A stretch of 9,058 nucleotides of DNA from an uncultured beta proteobacterium (GTDB lineage Bacteria; Pseudomonadota; Gammaproteobacteria; Burkholderiales; Burkholderiaceae_C): contig CAIQEX010000313.1 in NCBI GenBank assembly GCA_903870955.1, forward strand, positions 1-9,058, given 5' to 3'. The position numbers were made by a program, and so were the translations under genes. Position 1 is the first letter of the stretch; each line of letters begins with the position of its first letter. The notes below the pieces were generated by a model that did not search any database, was not told the DNA's origin, and saw nothing but the letters and a program-made list of their open reading frames with translations. Positions 1-9,058 of this stretch are shown piece after piece.

Positions 1-555
1 GACCAGTTGCAGGGCTACGAGTTCGACAAGATATTCCCGGGCTGCCGCATCATCGACATCCACGAGTACCTGCTAGAGAAGGGCATTACTCTGGTGCCAG
101 AAGGCGGCGCTGGCGCGGGCTATTTGTTCCACGACCCCTGCCACAGCCCGATGAAGTTGCAGGACCCGATGAAGACCGTCAAGGCGCTGGTGGGCGATGC
201 GGTTTTGAAGAGTGAGCGTTGCTGCGGCGAGTCTGGCACGCTGGGCGTGAACCGTCCCGACATCTCGACGCAAATCCGCTTTCGCAAGGAAGAGGAGTTG
301 CGTAAGGGTGAAGCGGATCTGCGCGCGTTGACCGCGGTGGAGGGTGCTCCGCCGTCCAAGGGCAATTTGAAAATTCTCACCAGTTGCCCCAGTTGCCTGC
401 AAGGCCTGACGCGTTACGGCAACGACCTGAACAATGGCTTGCTGGAAGCCGACTATGTGGTGGTCGAAATGGCCAATATGATATTGGGCAAGGAATGGTT
501 ACCCGAATACGTGCAAAAAGCGAATGCGGGAGGCATTGAGCGGGTGCTGGTGTAA
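1..555 (+). CDS. FAD/Fe-S oxidoreductase, C-terminal CCG domain (partial, 5' end outside window)
   Basis: The reading frame is open from base 1, so only the last 184 residues are seen. They form a cysteine-rich CCG domain as in the GlpC/heterodisulfide-reductase/glycolate-oxidase iron-sulfur subunits. In window numbering there is FHDPCHSP (Cys47), then ERCCGESG (Cys74-Cys75-Gly76), then SCPSC (Cys129 and Cys132), a typical set of Fe-S ligands. In betaproteobacteria this kind of tail ends very large FAD-binding, D-lactate-dehydrogenase-like oxidoreductases (DUF3683-type annotation). That larger identity is inferred, because the FAD domain lies upstream. It would be a cytoplasmic or membrane-associated 2-hydroxyacid-type dehydrogenase. 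An internal TTG at base 7 is not a credible start, since the domain is already under way. The next gene begins 12 bases after the stop, so the two may be cotranscribed although their functions look unrelated. Confidence 0.85.
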   Translation, partial: DQLQGYEFDKIFPGCRIIDIHEYLLEKGITLVPEGGAGAGYLFHDPCHSPMKLQDPMKTVKALVGDAVLKSERCCGESGTLGVNRPDISTQIRFRKEEELRKGEADLRALTAVEGAPPSKGNLKILTSCPSCLQGLTRYGNDLNNGLLEADYVVVEMANMILGKEWLPEYVQKANAGGIERVLV

Positions 556-556
556 C

Positions 557-564
557 GGAGGTGA
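557..564 (+). promoter_or_regulatory. Strong ribosome binding site for the glycosyltransferase gene
   Basis: GGAGGTGA lies directly after the oxidoreductase stop codon. The GGAGG core is six bases before the ATG at 568. It fixes that start and supports translation from a transcript shared with the upstream gene. Confidence 0.8.
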
Positions 565-567
565 TGC

Positions 568-1773
568 ATGGCCCGAATCTTGTTTGTCTGGGAGCAAGGG
601 GGCAATATTGGACACCTCAATAACCTGCGTCTGCCAATAGAAATTGCCATCAAAAATGGGCACCAGGTCATCCTGGCGGCCCGTGAACTGCACGCGTTGA
701 AGTCCATCATTGGGGACTTGCCAATTACCTGCATGCAGGCGCCCTTCAAGCAAAACACGGTCACCTTGGGGCAAGAGGCATTTCTGAGCTTTACCCATTT
801 ATTGAGCCGACAGTGCTTTTCCAATACCGACGAATTGCAGGTTTATCTCAATGCCTGGTGTGCCCTGTATTACCTGGTAAAGCCCGATCTGGTGGTGTTT
901 GAACACAGTCCCACGGCCTTGATCGCGGCGCACGACTACCCGTTTAAAAAGATGCTGGTGGGAAACGGCTTTTCCATTCCACCACAAGGCCAAGATCCCG
1001 ATGCGCCATTCATGCCTTTTCCGACGACGCAGTTGACCCCTGCCGTTCTGGAGTCTTTACACAGTGACGACAAAGCGCTGTTAAGGATTATTAACACTGC
1101 GCAGACGCTGATTGGTGCCAAACCCATGGACAGTTTGTACCGGATTTACGGACAGGCCCATGCCCGTCTGCTCACCACATGGCCGCAACTGGATCACTTT
1201 GGCGAGCGCACGGGACAGGTCTACGTGGGTGTCCAACCGCCGCCAAACCTTACCGCACCCGAGTGGCCTTCAGGCGCTGGCCCAAAAGTCTTTGGTTACC
1301 TTAACGCAATGCCCTCATTGGAGCTTTTACTGCAGGGCTTGGTCAGCGCCCAAGTTTGTGCCCTGCTGCTGGTGCGAAACCTGCCACTGCACCTGCGAGA
1401 GCGCTACAGTTCCGAGCGCATCCGGTTCATCGACCGTGCAGTCAACCTCGAAGACGTGGCGCGCCAGGTGTCATGGGTGGTCAGTAACTGCAACCACAAC
1501 ACGGTCGCATACTTTGCGCAGCGGGGCGTGCCGCAGTTGCTCATTCCAACCTACCAGGAGCATCTGTTTCTGGCGCTGCGGTTGGTGCAGAGGGGAGCAG
1601 CAGCCATGGCCTATCAGGACCAGCCGGCCTACACCGCGGCCATCAATGCCATGCAGACCCATGCGCCACTGCACGAGCAGGCTAAATTGCTCGCGGCACA
1701 GATGACACCCTACCAAAAGATGGATGTTGAAAAACATGTTCGCAAGGTCTTTGCGAAATTGCTCCCAACCTGA
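568..1773 (+). CDS. YjiC/MGT-like glycosyltransferase (GT1 superfamily, GT-B fold)
   Basis: This 401-residue cytoplasmic protein has the two-domain layout of UDP-glycosyltransferases of the GT1/YjiC group. The N-terminus has a beta strand ILFVWEQ followed by GGNIGHLN (residues 11-18), matching the glycine-rich loop and GH found at the start of these enzymes. The C-terminal half has WVVSNCNHNTVAYFAQRGVPQLLIP (303-327, W303 to P327 in outline), which aligns with the donor-binding region. The usual HGG is SNCN here, while the following H-N-T and the GVP..IP loop are kept. No signal peptide or membrane segment is seen. The start is fixed by the strong GGAGGTGA site. It abuts the sulfotransferase gene stop to stop. 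The acceptor is unknown; a role with the neighbouring sulfation/glycosylation genes is only inferred, because it is read from the opposite strand. Loss of the HGG histidine could mean an altered donor. Confidence 0.75.
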   Translation: MARILFVWEQGGNIGHLNNLRLPIEIAIKNGHQVILAARELHALKSIIGDLPITCMQAPFKQNTVTLGQEAFLSFTHLLSRQCFSNTDELQVYLNAWCALYYLVKPDLVVFEHSPTALIAAHDYPFKKMLVGNGFSIPPQGQDPDAPFMPFPTTQLTPAVLESLHSDDKALLRIINTAQTLIGAKPMDSLYRIYGQAHARLLTTWPQLDHFGERTGQVYVGVQPPPNLTAPEWPSGAGPKVFGYLNAMPSLELLLQGLVSAQVCALLLVRNLPLHLRERYSSERIRFIDRAVNLEDVARQVSWVVSNCNHNTVAYFAQRGVPQLLIPTYQEHLFLALRLVQRGAAAMAYQDQPAYTAAINAMQTHAPLHEQAKLLAAQMTPYQKMDVEKHVRKVFAKLLPT

Positions 1774-2595
1774 CTATTTCGCTGTTGGGTAAAACCAGTC
1801 GTAGTACCAGGCACAGGCTTTACGGATCAAGTCCTCGACCCGTTGCGGATTCTCGTGGCGACGTGGTGGCGTGATGCTGCTATGGAGTGTGTGCAGGTAC
1901 TTGTGACGAAAGTGGCTGTCGCTCTCATGCGGGCGCACCGTGAGTTGATTGGGATTGAGCTTGTAGTCCTTCATACCAAGCCACTGGTAAATGTGAGACA
2001 TGGTTTCGACTGGCTGAGCTAACAGGTTTTCAAAGCGCACAAAATAAATACGATCTTTGACCTGCTGCGGCAAGTCCTGCACCGACTGAATCGAAGACAG
2101 CGGTGCGCCGATTGCTTTATCTTTTGCAAACAACTGGTCAGCGCGCCCGAGGCGATCAAAATCTGCCAAATGGTCAATGAAGTCCAGCAGTATGGTCTTT
2201 TGGTGTTGGGCTTCTATCGAGCCGTATATCTGGCCGAGATCGCGAATGGACACCAGGAGTTTTGCATTGGGTTGTAGTCGCAGCAAAAACTCGATGCAAT
2301 GCAGCCAAGCACGATTCTTATCCACAATGACCGGCTTGTTGGTGCCCGCATACCAACCATTCAGAAATCCCTGCAAGGCGGTGTGCAGATGACCGTATGT
2401 CGTATCAAACTGGACGTCCAGTTGCGACAGCATGAAAGAGTCGTCGCTGATGCTACGCCGCGTTGCCAATAGCGCATTGCAAAGCGGAGAGCTATGGCCT
2501 TCACAATGAATGTCCGGGTGTTCAGCCAGCAATTGACACAACAAAGTGGAGCCCGCCCGGGGCAGACCACAGACGCCGACAAACTGAGCGGACAT
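1774..2595 (-). CDS. PAPS-dependent sulfotransferase
   Basis: The 273-residue protein begins MSAQFVGVCG. Residues 10-19, GLPRAGSTLL, are the 5'-phosphosulfate (PSB) loop of the sulfotransferase fold. VSIRDLGQIYGS (115-126) is the region with the conserved Arg and Ser that bind the 3'-phosphate of PAPS. VRFENLL (187-193) and the following helix are typical of the Sulfotransfer_3/TPST-like families. It should transfer sulfate from PAPS to a hydroxyl of a sugar, protein or small molecule; the acceptor cannot be read from sequence. The frame extends upstream to 2733, but that would overlap the preceding gene. The ATG at 2595 is preferred because AAGGAA sits seven bases ahead of it and the PAPS loop follows at the usual distance. 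No signal or membrane segment is seen, so it is probably cytoplasmic. It is the last gene of the minus-strand set that starts with cysC, which supplies its cosubstrate. Confidence 0.85.
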   Translation of the reverse strand: MSAQFVGVCGLPRAGSTLLCQLLAEHPDIHCEGHSSPLCNALLATRRSISDDSFMLSQLDVQFDTTYGHLHTALQGFLNGWYAGTNKPVIVDKNRAWLHCIEFLLRLQPNAKLLVSIRDLGQIYGSIEAQHQKTILLDFIDHLADFDRLGRADQLFAKDKAIGAPLSSIQSVQDLPQQVKDRIYFVRFENLLAQPVETMSHIYQWLGMKDYKLNPNQLTVRPHESDSHFRHKYLHTLHSSITPPRRHENPQRVEDLIRKACAWYYDWFYPTAK

Positions 2596-2635
2596 GGGAT
2601 GTTTCCTTGTGAATTGGGTTGTGAAAGGCGCGAAA

Positions 2636-3373
2636 TCAGTAGCCGGTAATGCCTTGTGGCATGGCGCGCAACATTTTGAAACGACGGAATCCCAGGTCCA
2701 AAAAGGGCATGAGGTCGAAATCGACCATGCCAAGAACCTCGCGTTCCTTGACGGTCTTCGAACATTTGAATTGGGCTCCCGGAACTTGCTTGTTGATTAT
2801 GGAAATGGACCCATAGCAAATCTTTGACGGGCAATTGAGGGCGCAGCCAGCGTTGCCAAATAGGGTGATGCGGCTCTTGTCTTGAATGCCTGCCAGGAAT
2901 TCCAGATTTTGGTTTAACGACATCGGCAACACGACGGTGTCGTACAGAGCCATGGCTTCGTCAATGCGTGCGTAGGAGTCAATGGCCTTTATGACGCTGG
3001 ATTCCAACTTGTAATGCGGATAGTCCCGGCGGATCCAGTGTGCCAATTTGTCGTTGGTGACAATGGCCGAGTTGCCTTCGCGGTGATGCTTCTCAAAGAA
3101 GGCAGAATAGTCCCGGTATTCTTTCTCGGTAACTACATGGTTGGTCAGCGGAAGGCGCAAGCCGATCCCCATGGCTGAGAGTTCAAACAGGTCATTGTTA
3201 CTGAGCTGTGGACCTTCGTAGATCCTTCCCCCGTAGAGTGTGCAGGGCTCGACAAAGCCGAACAGGCTGTCAATTTGCCGCAAAGGAATATTCGCAAAAT
3301 GGGTTTTCAAAAAAGGAATAACCGGTTCGCTGGCCTTCTTGCCGCGGGCTGAGATAGTGAATCGGACGTCCAT
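2636..3373 (-). CDS. U32-peptidase-like TIM-barrel protein with four-cysteine cluster
   Basis: This 245-residue protein is not recognised with certainty. Its pattern suggests a short member of the U32 peptidase/UbiU-UbiV-like group: a strand DTVVLPMSLNQNLEFL (145-160), then ITLFGNAGCALNCPSKIC (169-186), then LDLGFRRFKMLR (225-236), resembling the late barrel strand 'GI..FKI.GR' of that group. Cys177, Cys181, Cys186 and Cys204 lie close together and could bind a 4Fe-4S cluster, as in UbiU/UbiV (known for those proteins, inferred here). Cys44 is separate. No signal peptide or membrane helix is seen. The start ATG at 3373 has AGGGAG ten bases upstream. The gene begins 25 bases after the TPR-glycosyltransferase stop and ends 40 bases before the sulfotransferase start, so it is probably in the same operon. 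Its function in a sulfation/glycosylation setting is unknown; it could be an oxygen-sensitive hydroxylase-like modifier or a cofactor-dependent enzyme. Confidence 0.6.
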   Translation of the reverse strand: MDVRFTISARGKKASEPVIPFLKTHFANIPLRQIDSLFGFVEPCTLYGGRIYEGPQLSNNDLFELSAMGIGLRLPLTNHVVTEKEYRDYSAFFEKHHREGNSAIVTNDKLAHWIRRDYPHYKLESSVIKAIDSYARIDEAMALYDTVVLPMSLNQNLEFLAGIQDKSRITLFGNAGCALNCPSKICYGSISIINKQVPGAQFKCSKTVKEREVLGMVDFDLMPFLDLGFRRFKMLRAMPQGITGY

Positions 3374-3398
3374 GCTCTTGCTGCTCCCTGTACTTCAT

Positions 3399-5105
3399 TC
3401 AAGCTGCGAGCCAATCGTCGAGCGCCGTACCAACCCGCAAAACAAGATTCTCCCAACTACTGTGCTCGTGTCGTTGAAATAGCCGCACAGAAGGATACCA
3501 GCGGCTGTTCATTTGACCATCGCCGCCCTGCATAGTGATGGCCCAGCGCCAGTCGGGCCAAGGCAAGAGCAGAAGCCAGGTTTTCTTTCCCATTGCGCCA
3601 GCCAGGTGAGCTACGGCGCTGTCGATCGTGATCACCAGGTCCAGGTTTGCAATGGCCGCTGCGGTCTCGGCAAAATCAGCAAGGTAGGGCGCCAAGTCAT
3701 GTAACTTTGTGTCGTTTTGGGCGCCGTGGCCGGGAGGCGCATCCACCTGCAGTGAATACCAATCCACGGTGCGGCGCTCCAATAGTGTGGCTAATGCGGA
3801 AAACGGCACACTGCGCCGAGTGTCGGGCCGACCACGACCTGCCCACACAATGCCGACGCGCGGGAGGTTATCCCGGCCCAGGCGTTGAGCCCATTGCAAT
3901 ACCAAGTCGGGCTCGGCCTTCAAATAGGCGTTGGCCACCGGCAGGTCTTGTGCCTGGAGATTCAGGTTGAGGGGCAGGCTGAGCAGGGCTACGGCGAAGT
4001 CTAAAATGCCCAAGTCTGGCAGTTCGGTAGCTGCCGCGATGACGCTGACTCCTGGTAGGTTGTGAGCCAATAGCATGTGCAAACTGGGGTCCACCTCAAA
4101 AGTGACCTGCGCCCCCTGTTCCAGCAACTGGCTTAGCAACGGCGTGAACTGGAGCGTGTCGCCAAAACCCTGTTCCGCCCAGACCAAAATCCGCTTGCCC
4201 GCTAACGGTTCACCTTGCCACTTTGGCAAGCCGCGATTGCGCCATACACCGGGGAACCCGGGCCATGCCCAACGCCATTCGTACTCCCGCCAGCCTTGGT
4301 CATACCGGCCTAAAGTCAGCAGTGCCAATGCCAGGTTCCAATGGGCCAGCGCGAACCCGGAAGTCATCGCGACTGACTTTTGATGGCACAACACGGCCTC
4401 TTCATGCAGTCCGAGTTCACCCATGACCTTGCCCAAAGTGGTGAGTGCGTCGCCCATCATTGCAATCCGTCCGCTGGGCCGGCCGGCCGGCAGGGGTGTG
4501 GTGAGTGGCACATCCAATATGACTTCCAGGCGAGAAGCCATACCGTGGGCAAATTGCCTTAGCGACGGGTCAATGCGGGCAAACAACTGGATGGCGCGAA
4601 ATAGTTGTTGCACCGCTTCGGGTAGGCGTTGCACCTGTGCCAGGCAGGTACCCAAATTGACGTATGCACCGTAGTTCAACGGATCCTGAGAAAGGATGTT
4701 TCGGTATGAAATTTCAGCGTCGGCATAGTTTTTTGCCAACTGCAGCATGCGACCTTGCTCAAGCAACACGTTCAACGCCGCCTGCCCTTGTCCCGTACGC
4801 TCCAGCGCATTCGCCAAGCGGTCATACGTGGCTGGCAATGTTGGGTTCAGTCGAAGGGCATGCTGGAACAATTCGACCGCAATACCTGCTTCTGAGCGCT
4901 CCAGTGCAAGACTGGCCAGTTGATGCAAACAGGCGGCGGTCAGTCGGGGCCGATCGGATAGCTCCTTGTAAATTGCCCGCGCCTCCTCCAACTCGCCACG
5001 GGCGTGCAAATTCAGGGCTTGCGCAAAGCGCGGGAAATGCGCTGCCAGGTCGGCGAAAGGGCCGAACTCTTGAGGTGCCGGCGGATGTGCTTCTAAGCTT
5101 TGCAT
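3399..5105 (-). CDS. TPR protein with C-terminal GT9-like glycosyltransferase domain
   Basis: The 568-residue protein has two parts. Residues about 25-270 contain TPR helices, for example ARGELEEARAIYKEL (35-49), AVELFQHALRLNPTLPATYDRLA (76-98 in outline), YADAEISYRNILSQDPLNYGAYVNLG (127-152 in outline) and HWNLALALLTLGRYDQGW (255-272). Residues about 300-568 are a GT-B-like domain: KRILVWAEQGFGDTLQF (304-320), PRVGIVWAGRG (415-425), and DLVITIDSAVAHLAGAMG (489-506) followed by PWPDWRW (515-521), the pattern of TPR-linked heptosyltransferase/GT9-like enzymes common in proteobacteria. It probably transfers sugar to protein or glycan in the cytoplasm, with the TPRs binding the acceptor. The frame is open to a GTG at 5150, but the ATG at 5105 is chosen for the smaller, 13-base overlap with cysC; its Shine-Dalgarno site is weak, which suggests translational coupling. 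Its place beside a giant secreted adhesin recalls HMW1C-type modification, though the catalytic family looks different. Confidence 0.85.
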   Translation of the reverse strand: MQSLEAHPPAPQEFGPFADLAAHFPRFAQALNLHARGELEEARAIYKELSDRPRLTAACLHQLASLALERSEAGIAVELFQHALRLNPTLPATYDRLANALERTGQGQAALNVLLEQGRMLQLAKNYADAEISYRNILSQDPLNYGAYVNLGTCLAQVQRLPEAVQQLFRAIQLFARIDPSLRQFAHGMASRLEVILDVPLTTPLPAGRPSGRIAMMGDALTTLGKVMGELGLHEEAVLCHQKSVAMTSGFALAHWNLALALLTLGRYDQGWREYEWRWAWPGFPGVWRNRGLPKWQGEPLAGKRILVWAEQGFGDTLQFTPLLSQLLEQGAQVTFEVDPSLHMLLAHNLPGVSVIAAATELPDLGILDFAVALLSLPLNLNLQAQDLPVANAYLKAEPDLVLQWAQRLGRDNLPRVGIVWAGRGRPDTRRSVPFSALATLLERRTVDWYSLQVDAPPGHGAQNDTKLHDLAPYLADFAETAAAIANLDLVITIDSAVAHLAGAMGKKTWLLLLPWPDWRWAITMQGGDGQMNSRWYPSVRLFQRHEHSSWENLVLRVGTALDDWLAA

Positions 5106-5653
5106 GGGGCACGTCCCGGTGCAAGCAGACCGAGTATTTGTTCCACGCACTGCGCGGGCGAATATCGGGCGGTATCCAAAGTGAGCTGCGGCGATAGGGG
5201 CGCTTCATAGGGCGCATCGATGCCGGTAAAGTGCGGTAAATTTCCGGCCCTTGCACGTACGTACAGGCCCTTTGGGTCGCGCGATTCACAAACGGCCAGT
5301 GAGGTACTGAGGTAAATTTCCAACATTGAGGGGTCACCAATAAGCGTGCGGGCGTTGGCCCGATCAGCGCCTGAAGGCGATATAAGCGCCACGATTGCGT
5401 ACAGACCCGAACGATTCAACAGGGCGGCCACCTCTGCAGTGCGGCGAATGTTTTCGCTGCGATCTTTGTCCGAAAACCCCAAGTCCCGGCATAGGCCCTG
5501 GCGCATTTCGTCACCGTCAAGGATCACGCAAGAGTGCCCACGGTTCGCGAGTTCTTGTTTGAGCAGTCGTGCCAACGTGGATTTTCCGGCACCGGATAGC
5601 CCTGTGAGCCAAAAAGTGCAGGGCGGTTGGGTGCCAAATCCCGAAGCATTCAT
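5093..5653 (-). CDS. cysC: Adenylylsulfate (APS) kinase
   Basis: The 186-residue protein is a full-length stand-alone APS kinase, phosphorylating adenylylsulfate to PAPS with ATP in the cytoplasm. Seen in order: the P-loop GLSGAGKS near residues 18-25, the DGDEMR substrate region, GFSDKDRSENIRR, ISPSGADRANAR, and the family signature RDPKGLYVRARAG followed by FTGIDAPYEAP. The tyrosine or phenylalanine often found after ISP is a serine here; the other signature residues are intact. The frame remains open upstream to 5806, but that stretch is AT-rich and unlike the family, so the ATG at 5653 is preferred even though no clear ribosome binding site precedes it. It is the first gene of the minus-strand set and overlaps the TPR-glycosyltransferase start by 13 bases. 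With a sulfotransferase three genes on, its likely job is to make PAPS for sulfation rather than for cysteine synthesis (inference). Confidence 0.93.
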   Translation of the reverse strand: MNASGFGTQPPCTFWLTGLSGAGKSTLARLLKQELANRGHSCVILDGDEMRQGLCRDLGFSDKDRSENIRRTAEVAALLNRSGLYAIVALISPSGADRANARTLIGDPSMLEIYLSTSLAVCESRDPKGLYVRARAGNLPHFTGIDAPYEAPLSPQLTLDTARYSPAQCVEQILGLLAPGRAPCKA

Positions 5654-5659
5654 AGTTTG

Positions 5660-5674
5660 ATTTTTGTCAAAAAT
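5660..5674. promoter_or_regulatory. Perfect 15-bp palindrome upstream of cysC (operator-like)
   Basis: ATTTTTGTCAAAAAT has 7-bp inverted arms around a single central base. It lies 7 to 21 bases before the cysC ATG, covering the place where a ribosome binding site would be. It resembles a transcription-factor site more than a terminator, as the arms are nearly all A/T. No regulator can be named. Confidence 0.35.
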
Positions 5675-5724
5675 GCTAAAGATCCGACAATATCGATCAT
5701 GATTTGAAAAATAGCTTAATTTAT

Positions 5725-5754
5725 TTGAAGATGCTAGCATGTAGCCCATATAAA
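5725..5754 (+). promoter_or_regulatory. Candidate sigma-70 promoter for the adhesin gene
   Basis: TTGAAG (5725-5730) and TATAAA (5749-5754) are separated by 18 bases and fit the -35 and -10 consensus fairly well. Transcription would start near 5761, giving a leader of about 55 bases. A 10-bp palindrome, ATGCTAGCAT (5731-5740), fills the first part of the spacer and could be an operator. Prediction by eye only. Confidence 0.4.
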
Positions 5755-5767
5755 TTCTCGGCCTTTC

Positions 5768-5788
5768 ATTGGGACAAACCAGCCCAAT
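5768..5788 (+). promoter_or_regulatory. Possible leader hairpin of the adhesin mRNA
   Basis: ATTGGG (5768-5773) and CCCAAT (5783-5788) form a 6-bp stem with a 9-base loop. It would lie in the untranslated leader just upstream of the GGGAG ribosome binding site (5807-5811). It has no U-tract, so it is not a terminator; an RNA-stability or translation role is speculative. Confidence 0.25.
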
Positions 5789-5815
5789 AATGCCGTTGAC
5801 TTGCATGGGAGAGCC

Positions 5816-8800
5816 ATGGTGGGCAAGGCTTCTTTAAATCACATTTACCGCACGGTATGGAATGAGGCGTTGGGGGCTATGGTGGCCGTCGCCGAAATAG
5901 CCACCGGTCGCGGCAAGTCTTCCGGCACCGCTGTTCGGGGCCACCTCTGTTTGCAAGCCCCGCTATGGGCATATTCCAATCTGGTTCCATTAGCCGTCGG
6001 GGTTGCGTTGGCTTGGGGCGCATCGTTCCGCTTGGCACTTGCCAACCCGACAGGCGGGGTAGTCACCGTTGGGACGGCCACTTTTGTCGACAAGGGCAAT
6101 CAGCTCACCGTCACGACGACCACGGCCAAGACGGCGATCAATTGGCAGAGCTTCTCCATCCCCAGCGGCAGCACGACCTACTTTAACCAACCCAGCGCCA
6201 GTAGCTCGGTGCTCAACCGGGTTGTAACCAACACGCCGTCGTTGATTTTTGGCACGTTAAGCAGCAATGGCAATGTGCTGTTGGTGAACCAGTCGGGCAT
6301 TACGGTGGGCAGCGGCGCGGTGGTGGACACGGCAGGGTTCACGGCAGCGGCCATGAATTTGAAAACGCCTGACGACCTTTGGGCGAGTGGAAGTACTTTG
6401 AATTTTGCCAATGATGGCGCGTTTAGTGGCACGGTCGACGTACAGGGTGGTGCGAACGTGTTGGCGCGCAGCGCGGGTGGTGATATTGTTTTGCTCGGCG
6501 GCAATGTCAAGGTCGGAACGGGTGCGCTGGTGCAGGCTTTGGACGGCACCGTGATTCTTGCCGCCGGTCAGGATGTCAATCTAACCGGGCGCGGGCTGGA
6601 TGGAATTGTTTTCAATATTCAGGCCGCCAATAACTCGGCGCTGAATTTGGGTAATTTGCAAGGCAGTGCGGTAGGAGTATTTGCTGGCACGCTGAGTAAT
6701 AGTGGCGCCATTCAGGCACAGGCGACAACTGCCAGCACCATCGACGGGCGCGTATTCATCTCAGCCGGACAGACTTTTGGTGGTAGCGTAAACGTCGAAG
6801 GATCAGTTTCCGCGGTGAATTCAAATGGCACAGGAGGCAGTATTCAACTGACTGCCAGCACCGTACGTGTTGGCGACAACGTTAGTTTGGCTCCCGTCAA
6901 TGCAATCAGCGCGGGCCAGTTGTCTATTGACGCATCCAACTTCACTGTTAGCCAGGCGGCACCGGCGTCAACCGATAGCGGGATGTCGGCCACCGAATTG
7001 CAGTCGGTGCTGGGTAGCAACAACGTGGCGATCAACACCACCATCCCGTTTGGAGAAGCATCCGGTGGAAGCATCACAATCAATGGTGCGTCGGAATGGG
7101 CTAACCATGACCTGACACTTAATGCCAACCAATCAATCCACGTCAACGCGGCTCTGACTGGACACAATTCAACATTGAACTTGTCTGCGGGAAATAGTGT
7201 CAACGTTAATCAATCGATTACGGTCACCAATGCGTCCAGCCTGACAATTTCCTCTTCTGGCAGCGATATCAATTTACTTGCTCCGGTTGTTGCCAATGGC
7301 AGCAACGTTGACCTTGAACCCTTCGGCAACCTCAACATACCGATGGATGCCGCGACGGGCGTGTTCAGCGGCAGCCTGAAGTTGGCTGACTCTTTGGGTG
7401 TCGTCGGTGCGGGCAGTGGACTCCTGACGATAAAGAACCAGCCCTATACCGTGGTCGGGAAGATGTCGGATATGACCGACATGGCGGGACGTTACGCGCT
7501 GGGAGGCGACCTGGACTTGTCCAGCACGACCGGCTATGTACCTGTCGGTAACTCGTCAGCACCCTTTGCCGGCACTTTTGAAGGCCTGGGCCACACCATC
7601 AGCAACCTGACGATCAGCGCCGCAAACCAAGGGGACGTGGGCCTGTTTGGCAGTCTGTCGGGCGCCGTGAGCAATCTGCGCATGGACAAAGTCGCCGTCA
7701 CGGGTGGTTCCAATGTCGGCGCGCTGGCCGGAAATGTGAGTGGTGGAGCGATTTTCCAGACCTCGGTCACCGGCTCGTCCAGCGTGACCGGCAGTAATGT
7801 TGACGGCGCTTTTTACGTGGGTGGTTTGATCGGTTCAATGGGCGCCGGCAGCATAAGCAAGAGCGTCAGCTTTGCAAATGTGAGCGGTGGCACCAATACC
7901 GGTGGTTTGGCCGGGTCCGCATCGGGTTCGGCTATTAGCAATAGCTTGGCGACCGGGACTGTGACGGGCAGTAGCTATACCGGGGGACTAATCGGATCAG
8001 CATCGAGTTCGACTATCAGCAATAGTCGCGCTTCGGGCAATGTCACGGGCACCTACCGTGCCGGTGGATTGGTTGGATACGTGAACCATGGGTCAATTTC
8101 CGTCAGCAGTTCCAGCGGTGCGGTGCAGGGGGCGAATTATGTGGGTGGGCTGGTCGGCTACATGAATTATGGTGACATTAGCAATAGCTATAGCGCATCT
8201 ACTGTTGGCGGTGATTTGGACGTCGGTGGTCTCGTGGGCTACACCTATGGCACCAATTTGCATTTTGATCACGCCACAGGAAATGTAACCGGAACCGCAA
8301 ACGCAAACAATGTAGGCGGTTTGGTTGGTTATCACAACTATGGCGACAGTACCAATGGAACCGGCATATTGGATTCAAGCTTTGCCACAGGGGCAGTCCA
8401 AGGTGCAAATTCTGTGGGTGGCCTAGTTGGATATAACAACGGAGCAATATCCAACAGCGATGCCACGGGTACAGTGCATGGGGCCATTGATATCGGTGGG
8501 CTGGTTGGACACAACGCGGCATTAATTAGTGGCAGCACGGCATCGGGCGACGTATTTGGCACTGATAGAGCGGCCGGTGGACTTGTTGGAAACAACGGCA
8601 ATACTGTAGTTAGCAGTAGTGCCACGGGCAATGTCAGCGGTGGCACCGAAGTTGGCGGATTGGTCGGCTACAACTTTGGATTTGCCAATAGCCCGGCAAG
8701 TATTTTGCTCAGCAGCGCCTATGGATCAGTCAATGGTATCTCGTATGTAGGTGGTCTGGTCGGTAACTCTCTTTATGGAACCGTTGGCTTTAGTCATGCC

Positions 8801-9058
8801 AGCGGTAATGTTGCGGGTACTGGGAATATTGTTGGCGGCTTGGTAGGTAAAATTACAAACGGTTCAATTGACGGCTCATATGCCATAGGAAATGTGCAGG
8901 GTGCAAATTCTGTTGGGGGATTGGTTGGTTCAATTTCTTACGGTTCAATTAATAACTCATTTGCCATAGGAAATGTGCAGGGTGCAAACTACGTCGGAGG
9001 ATTGGTTGGTTCAATTTCTTACGGTTCAATTGACAGTTCATTTGCCTCAGGGAATGTA
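5816..9058 (+). CDS. Giant filamentous-haemagglutinin-like adhesin with ESPR, TPS domain and GLUG repeats (partial, 3' end outside window)
   Basis: The frame is open from ATG 5816 to the window edge, 1081 codons with no stop. GGGAG lies four bases ahead of the start. Residues 7-36, beginning LNHIYRTVWNEALG and ending GRGKSS, match the extended signal peptide region of type V secreted proteins. A hydrophobic segment follows (about 54-70), with probable cleavage after RLALA (residue 76). Residues about 77-190 form a haemagglutination/TPS secretion domain with INWQSFSI, FNQPSASSSVLNRV and a NQSGITVG stretch where NPNGI is usual. A Gly/Asn/Ser/Thr-rich beta-helical section follows to about residue 535. 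From there YALGGDLDLS, FAGTFEGLGHTISNLTIS and DVGLFG lead into some seventeen GLUG-type VGGLVG repeats. It should be exported by Sec and then through a TpsB-type outer-membrane pore to the cell surface. More than twenty N-x-S/T sequons are visible, which would suit N-glycosylation. Cysteine is nearly absent (one, in the signal region). The full protein is probably much longer. Confidence 0.92.
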   Translation, partial: MVGKASLNHIYRTVWNEALGAMVAVAEIATGRGKSSGTAVRGHLCLQAPLWAYSNLVPLAVGVALAWGASFRLALANPTGGVVTVGTATFVDKGNQLTVTTTTAKTAINWQSFSIPSGSTTYFNQPSASSSVLNRVVTNTPSLIFGTLSSNGNVLLVNQSGITVGSGAVVDTAGFTAAAMNLKTPDDLWASGSTLNFANDGAFSGTVDVQGGANVLARSAGGDIVLLGGNVKVGTGALVQALDGTVILAAGQDVNLTGRGLDGIVFNIQAANNSALNLGNLQGSAVGVFAGTLSNSGAIQAQATTASTIDGRVFISAGQTFGGSVNVEGSVSAVNSNGTGGSIQLTASTVRVGDNVSLAPVNAISAGQLSIDASNFTVSQAAPASTDSGMSATELQSVLGSNNVAINTTIPFGEASGGSITINGASEWANHDLTLNANQSIHVNAALTGHNSTLNLSAGNSVNVNQSITVTNASSLTISSSGSDINLLAPVVANGSNVDLEPFGNLNIPMDAATGVFSGSLKLADSLGVVGAGSGLLTIKNQPYTVVGKMSDMTDMAGRYALGGDLDLSSTTGYVPVGNSSAPFAGTFEGLGHTISNLTISAANQGDVGLFGSLSGAVSNLRMDKVAVTGGSNVGALAGNVSGGAIFQTSVTGSSSVTGSNVDGAFYVGGLIGSMGAGSISKSVSFANVSGGTNTGGLAGSASGSAISNSLATGTVTGSSYTGGLIGSASSSTISNSRASGNVTGTYRAGGLVGYVNHGSISVSSSSGAVQGANYVGGLVGYMNYGDISNSYSASTVGGDLDVGGLVGYTYGTNLHFDHATGNVTGTANANNVGGLVGYHNYGDSTNGTGILDSSFATGAVQGANSVGGLVGYNNGAISNSDATGTVHGAIDIGGLVGHNAALISGSTASGDVFGTDRAAGGLVGNNGNTVVSSSATGNVSGGTEVGGLVGYNFGFANSPASILLSSAYGSVNGISYVGGLVGNSLYGTVGFSHASGNVAGTGNIVGGLVGKITNGSIDGSYAIGNVQGANSVGGLVGSISYGSINNSFAIGNVQGANYVGGLVGSISYGSIDSSFASGNV
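7420..9058 (+). repeat. GLUG repeat array encoded in the adhesin
   Basis: The translated repeat follows the pattern [x]VGGLVG-(x)n-GxISNSxAxGxVxG and recurs about every 25-33 residues. About seventeen copies are visible: VGLFG, VGALAG, VGGLIG, TGGLAG, TGGLIG, AGGLVG, then mostly VGGLVG to the edge. The array continues beyond the window. Early copies differ in length and sequence, while the last ones are highly similar, suggesting recent growth toward the 3' side. GLUG repeats are known from bacterial surface and M26-type proteins and are thought to form a beta-helical stalk. Confidence 0.85.
8861..9058 (+). repeat. Near-identical 81-bp tandem repeats at the end of the visible array
   Basis: Two full units, 8861-8941 and 8942-9022, and a 36-base third unit cut by the edge each start GGTTCAATT. 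By eye the two full units differ at about 10 of 81 positions, much less than earlier GLUG copies. The period of 27 codons keeps the frame, so gain or loss of units would change stalk length without breaking the gene. Confidence 0.8.

Follow-up and report, generated by a model that had tools for sequence, protein, structure and literature searches.

Introduction

To our knowledge, very few examples of protein sulfation have been described in bacteria. In Xanthomonas, RaxX is the substrate of RaxST. RaxST is a tyrosine sulfotransferase, RaxP and RaxQ make its sulfate donor 3'-phosphoadenosine-5'-phosphosulfate (PAPS), and the part of the source cited here places raxST with raxA and raxB (PMC4216712). 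HMW1 is a two-partner secretion (TPS) adhesin beside which the cytoplasmic glycosyltransferase HMW1C is encoded, as stated in the cited portion of that account (PMC3983070). Here we analysed a 9,058-nt stretch of DNA from an uncultured beta proteobacterium (contig C313, positions 1-9058, of a genome that is 87% complete), referred to throughout as the window, in which genes for a sulfotransferase (ST), a U32-like protein, a tetratricopeptide repeat (TPR)-glycosyltransferase and the predicted adenosine 5'-phosphosulfate (APS) kinase CysC lie next to a two-partner-type adhesin with GLUG repeats. Our preferred reading of the sequence comparisons, to which we give a probability of roughly 0.6, is that this is a dedicated cassette for cytoplasmic sulfation of the adhesin, with tyrosines of the GLUG repeats as the probable sites, ahead of its predicted two-partner export.

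Like the Rax system, in the part of it described in PMC4216712, the cassette combines an ST resembling tyrosylprotein sulfotransferases (TPSTs) with PAPS-making enzymes that would serve an exported product; the Rax ST gene lies beside export genes. The Rax set, which also includes RaxABC, exports its product by a type I system, whereas the partner here is a GLUG adhesin of two-partner type and not a small leader-peptide substrate. A Pfam scan of seven window proteins found no type I secretion gene. The PAPS genes of the cassette are also in the same locus as the ST, whereas the cited part of the source does not place raxP and raxQ with raxST (PMC4216712). The likeness drawn here concerns role and gene content. 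With HMW1/HMW1C the window shares a TPS adhesin and an adjoining gene for a dedicated cytoplasmic modifying enzyme; however, HMW1C is a GT41 enzyme that places hexose on asparagine, whereas the conserved modifier here is a sulfotransferase, the glycosyltransferase is of a TPR plus GT9-like type, and glycosylation sequons are not enriched. The best reading is that the cassette works like RaxST and HMW1C, and by the features tested is a member of neither system.

Conserved gene neighbourhood of the sulfotransferase

We surveyed genomes for the ST at E <=1e-40 and annotated the surrounding regions by BLAST against the window and cassette proteins; the lineage names used for the surveyed, G-numbered genomes are inferred assignments. 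Within the window's order 7 of 399 genomes had the ST, within the Chlorobiaceae 11 of 86, and within the Geobacter order 9 of 141. It was also found in 3 of 148 genomes of the phylum of G435, these three being within the Chlorobiaceae count as well, and among 398 genomes of the window's phylum only in the window's own. The core sample comprised 25 loci with an ST of at least 60% identity; outside it stand G1117, G1098, the Syntrophaceae locus L054 (from the U32 search described below) and G851 (an ST remnant, L180). A TPS-type adhesin was in the cluster at 16 of the 25 loci (the window; G317, G380; G435-G439, G984, G1002; G1030-G1032, G1123, G1010, G1027), PAPS genes at 14, and both at 11. In four of them the contig includes just the adhesin's end, which was recognised by a shared C-terminal domain (G984, G1010, G1027) or by repeats and an adjoining FhaC gene (G317).

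Complete sets in Chlorobiaceae and in the Geobacter order ran, in sequence, FhaC, adhesin, ST, a U32-like gene or a TauE-type transporter, CysD and CysNC; the Geobacter relative G1031 has the row with TauE. The gene order adhesin-ST-PAPS genes was common to Chlorobiaceae, the Geobacter order and Syntrophaceae L054 (other genes interposed). Regular occurrence of the sulfate genes without an adhesin, which would have told against the original prediction, was not observed, since 11 of the 14 loci with ST and PAPS genes included one; of the other three, G927 begins inside the ST at a contig edge, and G1004 and G988 are without an adhesin. Sulfation of the TPS adhesin, as predicted from sequence, is supported by a conserved gene neighbourhood beyond the window's own contig.

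Another scan used an alignment of the U32-like family (93 relatives), and the best 80 loci were kept. In eight of these, five from Chlorobiaceae, two from Syntrophaceae and one from Geobacter, the U32-like gene was accompanied by an adhesin, by PAPS genes or by both. CysD and CysNC were present in seven of the eight (all except L061), above curated cut-offs in the copies scanned, and an ST of 65-73% identity in six (L056 has none, and L062 a distant copy). The Chlorobiaceae-type arrangement is illustrated by L044, with FhaC, a 1127-aa ESPR/TPS/GLUG adhesin, ST, U32, CysD and CysNC in a row. TauE was additionally present in the Syntrophaceae and Geobacter loci. At 71 of the 80 loci, many of which are short, the 6 kb around the gene contained no tested gene, and L104 had only a distant ST, 4.4 kb away; on the basis of the 71 loci the U32-like gene was rejected as a marker of the cassette.

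A TauE-type transporter was seen in cassettes of Syntrophaceae and the Geobacter order (L054, L056, L062, L166, L168, L169), and in L166, L168 and L169 it holds the place that the U32-like gene has in Chlorobiaceae.

Adhesins with and without the sulfotransferase

As a control we compared adhesin frames that share the C-terminal domain in 46 Chlorobiaceae regions, covering domain matches of about 59 bits or more and a single one that scored lower. Eight frames had an ST within 91 bp of the adhesin stop (in one, L180, an ST remnant) and 39 did not. ST, U32, CysD, CysNC and TauE were absent within 9 kb of all 39 ST-less frames, the flank being short on one side in some, and several of these had FhaC only. 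GLUG repeats at 0.5 or more per 100 aa were found in 7 of 8 ST-linked and 3 of 39 ST-less frames (p 1.4e-5), and when frames shorter than 500 aa were dropped, in 6 of 6 and 3 of 29 (p 5e-5). Tyrosine content was likewise higher in the ST-linked frames. Genome G437 encodes both a GLUG-rich adhesin with the cassette and a GLUG-poor adhesin without it. This concentration of GLUG-rich frames with the ST, also within a single genome, suggests that the acceptor region is the GLUG repeats.

The C-terminal domain itself, which resembles He_PIG, was considered as a sulfation tag and rejected, as it is also found in adhesins without an ST. It occurs in ST-linked adhesins of Chlorobiaceae (7), the Geobacter order (6) and L054, and genomes with a match numbered 39 of the 86 in Chlorobiaceae and 26 of the 141 in the Geobacter order; judged by eye, the adhesins of G380 and G317 lack it. 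We therefore regard it as a general end domain of these adhesins. The high domain scores of the ST-linked copies are partly circular, since these copies built the profile.

Tyrosine as the predicted acceptor

The solved structures nearest to the ST, by PDB phmmer and hmmsearch and by predicted fold, are protein-tyrosine sulfotransferases. The PAPS-binding loop GLPRxGST is conserved. Where TPST has its Cys-Gly-Glu-Glu stretch, the HMM alignment shows a gap. Unlike TPST1 and TPST2, with which it shares 16-19% identity in structural alignment, the ST is bacterial and is assumed to be cytoplasmic.

The U32 family includes UbiU/UbiV and RlhA among others. The U32-like protein of the window qualifies for it by a predicted U32 fold and four invariant cysteines (177, 181, 186 and 204), features it has in common with the iron-sulfur (Fe-S)-binding U32 proteins presented in the cited part of PMC6747719. 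Its spacing, C-x3-C-x4-C-x17-C, differs from the recurrent U32-family pattern CX6CX15CX3/4C given there (PMC6747719). Among the U32-like relatives listed, one (P0054) had a Peptidase_U32 Pfam match.

These data are consistent with a mechanism in which CysC, or elsewhere CysD with CysNC, would make PAPS; the family assignment is clear (for CysC, TIGR00455 at 208 bits against a curated cut-off of 138.7), and the activity is expected from it. The ST would then transfer sulfate from PAPS to the adhesin, as its conserved adjacency and its link with GLUG repeats suggest, and its closeness to tyrosylprotein sulfotransferases points to tyrosine as the probable acceptor. The U32-like protein, from its predicted fold and invariant cysteines, is a likely Fe-S accessory enzyme. 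Export would proceed through an FhaC-type TpsB, whose gene is seen in relatives and not on this contig, and polysulfated repeats could give a negatively charged fibre with new binding properties. In the window's lineage, the added TPR-glycosyltransferase may attach a sugar too.

If correct, this would be a second kind of dedicated TPS-adhesin modification beside glycosylation by HMW1C, and would explain why CysD-CysNC is kept beside an adhesin in some green sulfur bacteria and Geobacter relatives. The cassette would also offer a likely cultivable host in which to test bacterial protein sulfation. Among the open-access papers listed by our searches, the longer lists being covered in part, no title or opening of an abstract described a sulfated two-partner adhesin; three Xanthomonas genome papers among them mention both a sulfotransferase and two-partner secretion.

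Several observations weigh against sulfation of the adhesin by a dedicated cassette. Eight of the 25 ST loci have no visible adhesin (G355, G352, G293, G118, G1004, G988, G1005, G1074), two of these eight hold ST and CysC, and G355 and G1074 are plain adhesin-negative loci. Five of the eight are limited by their contig or decayed: G352 is on a 4467-b contig, the ST of G293 and of G118 is about 1 kb from a contig end, that of G988 is partial and that of G1005 has a stop. The contig of G1004 ends 2 kb upstream. Loci of one family are not independent samples. No gene for the TpsB partner (FhaC/ShlB) is in the window, the contig ending inside the adhesin; an FhaC-type TpsB adjoins the adhesins of the relatives L044, L168, L169, L136 and L133. 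In the Chlorobiaceae control, L200, L203 and L219 are GLUG-rich adhesins without an ST, and the 39 ST-less frames include L204, a remnant of 70 aa that lies some 10 kb away from the decayed G1005 ST. At L062 the adhesin of the cassette is poor in GLUG repeats and a close ST is lacking. The confidence of the ST model is modest (pLDDT 66.9), and TPSTs lead other sulfotransferases by 1 to 3 Z units. GLUG repeats themselves bring tyrosines. Finally, 10 of the 17 ST-linked frames have no tyrosine with at least three acidic residues within five positions. Strongly acidic surroundings are the usual setting of eukaryotic TPST sites, and their lack argues against the ST having the same site preference as the eukaryotic enzymes. 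Tyrosines in acidic context were rejected as a general feature, with no enrichment as a rule.

The same count lowers the odds of a more far-reaching version of the cassette. This would be a self-contained island with its own PAPS supply, catalysing tyrosine O-sulfation along the GLUG repeats of giant TPS adhesins in at least three lineages to give polysulfated surface fibres, in which an oxygen-independent hydroxylation of the acceptor ring by the U32-like Fe-S protein may come first, yielding sulfated repeats of the 3,4-dihydroxyphenylalanine (DOPA) type. We offer this only tentatively and think it somewhat unlikely.

Alternative explanations

The ST might instead act on a surface polysaccharide, a lipid or a small molecule, and have the adhesin as its neighbour because both shape the cell surface. 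The eight ST loci with no adhesin in view would fit such an acceptor, as would the sulfated capsular polysaccharides reported from marine bacteria in the cited parts of PMC11641403 and PMC11766843. However, the position of the ST no more than 91 bp after the adhesin stop in the eight Chlorobiaceae frames that have one, and its association with GLUG repeats, count against this, and we consider the explanation unlikely.

The original prediction was of a sulfo-glycosylated adhesin, in which the TPR-glycosyltransferase would put a sugar on the adhesin and the ST would sulfate that sugar. That the glycosyltransferase gene is flanked in the operon by cysC and the U32-like gene is in keeping with this, and HMW1/HMW1C, within the part of PMC3983070 cited, provides the precedent of a TPS adhesin with a dedicated cytoplasmic glycosyltransferase. 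Pairings of relatives by equal length of their longest contigs also suggest that the gene shares three other contigs with the U32-like gene (P0003/P0246, P0006/P0249, P0007/P0242) and two with the ST (P0126/P0255, P0169/P0292). Because of these pairings it may be a lineage-specific addition to the cassette. The family is large (1240 proteins at E <=1e-60 among 7998 candidates scored), with homologues of up to 58% identity over nearly the full length. Of 61 related genomes 45 gave a match, in some cases confined to the TPR part. BLAST gave no match to it in the cassettes of Chlorobiaceae, the Geobacter order or Syntrophaceae, and no TPS adhesin in any of 20 regions around its relatives from the window's genus and order, these regions being a selection from a longer match list and several of them short contigs. 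For both reasons the TPR-glycosyltransferase was rejected as part of the conserved core. No GT41 or HMW1C-type domain was found in the window proteins with Pfam, and the NCBIfam TPR-type matches were below cut-off. The more than twenty N-x-S/T sequons originally noted are there (23 in the visible part of the adhesin), but shuffled sequences hold 20.5 +/- 3.7 (p 0.29), and the sequons were rejected as evidence of N-glycosylation. With the ST, moreover, closer to tyrosine than to glycan sulfotransferases, a sulfated sugar on the adhesin appears unlikely. Of the predicted sulfo-glycosylation, then, the sulfation is upheld by the neighbourhood conserved across lineages, and the case for glycosylation is weak. 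Co-occurrence across genomes, also proposed at the outset, likewise held for adhesin, ST and PAPS genes and not for the TPR-glycosyltransferase, and the U32-like gene was mostly found elsewhere.

Two relatives of the TPR-glycosyltransferase (L153, G007:C1; L154, G001:C1) have as a neighbour a repeat protein longer than 2200 aa, and L153 also has what we take, from the sequence, to be an FkbM-like methyltransferase and TolC/HlyD/ABC-type secretion genes. This suggests that the family modifies other exported giant proteins.

That the PAPS genes merely serve ordinary sulfate assimilation next to an incidental adhesin is very improbable: many bacteria use CysC and CysDNC for assimilation, but the adhesin-ST-PAPS order is kept in three lineages as described above and none of the 39 sister adhesins has PAPS genes within 9 kb.

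Organization of the window

The arrangement originally described, with the TPR-glycosyltransferase, cysC and ST divergent from an ESPR/TPS/GLUG adhesin across 162 bp, was confirmed for open reading frames, domains and gap (Table 1). The ST had been included in a segment of 3399-9058 and lies outside it.

Table 1. Features of the 9,058-nt window
Feature	Position	Strand	Remarks
Cys-rich/DUF3400 protein, truncated end only	1-555		
Glycosyltransferase-like gene	568..1773	+	Convergent with the sulfotransferase; no family match in Pfam or NCBIfam
Sulfotransferase (ST), 273 aa	1774..2595	-	Pfam Sulfotransfer_3, E 4.2e-21
U32-like TIM-barrel protein, 245 aa	2636..3373	-	No Pfam match of its own; fold confirmed by structure prediction
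TPR + GT9-like glycosyltransferase	3399..5105	-	Pfam TPR models; PF01075 marginal, 22.5 bits against a cut-off of 22
cysC, predicted APS kinase	5093..5653	-	Pfam APS_kinase, E 1.5e-57, and NCBIfam apsK, both above cut-offs
Divergent intergenic region, 162 bp	5654..5815		Between cysC ATG 5653 and adhesin ATG 5816
Two-partner-type adhesin	5816..9058	+	ESPR ~5837-5959, TPS ~6044-6712, GLUG repeats ~7700-9058

The minus-strand genes overlap by 13 bp and are then separated by gaps of 25 and 40 bp, and since they are so closely packed a single operon is likely. The glycosyltransferase-like gene at the other end is a doubtful member of the cassette. The adhesin starts at the ATG or at GTG 5819, with GGGAGAG at 5807-5813 upstream (2 nt from the ATG, 5 nt from the GTG). 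Pfam matches to ESPR (PF13018, 51.5 bits), TPS (PF05860, 76.3 bits) and Glug were all above cut-off, and NCBIfam identified a filamentous hemagglutinin N-terminal domain; with both ESPR and the TPS secretion domain the protein qualifies as a TpsA. It had been called giant. In the window 1081 aa are visible and the frame is still open at the contig end, so that its full size is not visible; the term does apply to the ST-linked relatives, which are 2000 to more than 3000 aa long.

The far end of the adhesin could be on another contig. At the edge of contig C129 (C129:8030-8356; L176 8018-11008) a frame of 996 aa with YDG/MBG repeats, still open there, ends in the He_PIG-like C-terminal domain of the ST-linked adhesins and is the sole site with this domain in the window's genome (E <=0.01). 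This frame is a candidate end for either the window adhesin or a TPS adhesin on contig C312, which likewise runs off its contig.

Promoter and terminator matches in the window did not exceed those in shuffles. The divergent region has one weak sigma-70-like match (5664-5691, plus strand), which is no evidence of a promoter, as such matches number 2 over the whole window and 5.4 in its shuffles. An Rfam scan of the window gave no match. A defence system was considered and rejected, PADLOC giving weak APS kinase matches only.

Horizontal transfer of the cassette is not claimed, since the ST tree does not reject a single clade for the window's order (approximately unbiased test, p-AU 0.22). On plasmids the ST was found in 1 of 72,556 records at E <=1e-20. 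This copy, from Geminocystis (NZ_AP014824.1 46071-46865; L117), is 52% identical and lies between recombinase and transposase genes; the gene table, which is incomplete, names no adhesin beside it.

The locus on G1005:C1 (L204 with L161) is in decay, with remnants of an adhesin end and of FhaC about 10 kb from an ST with an in-frame stop. An ST branch of 49-51% identity (G1117 and G1098; L173 and L174) lies beside YDG-repeat proteins of 2318 and 2821 aa, separated from them by a gene of roughly 236 aa whose L173 copy is FecR-like. L173 also holds a 28% identical relative (515-1810) of the window's glycosyltransferase-like gene at 568-1773, with Pfam matches to EryCIII-like_C/UDPGT.

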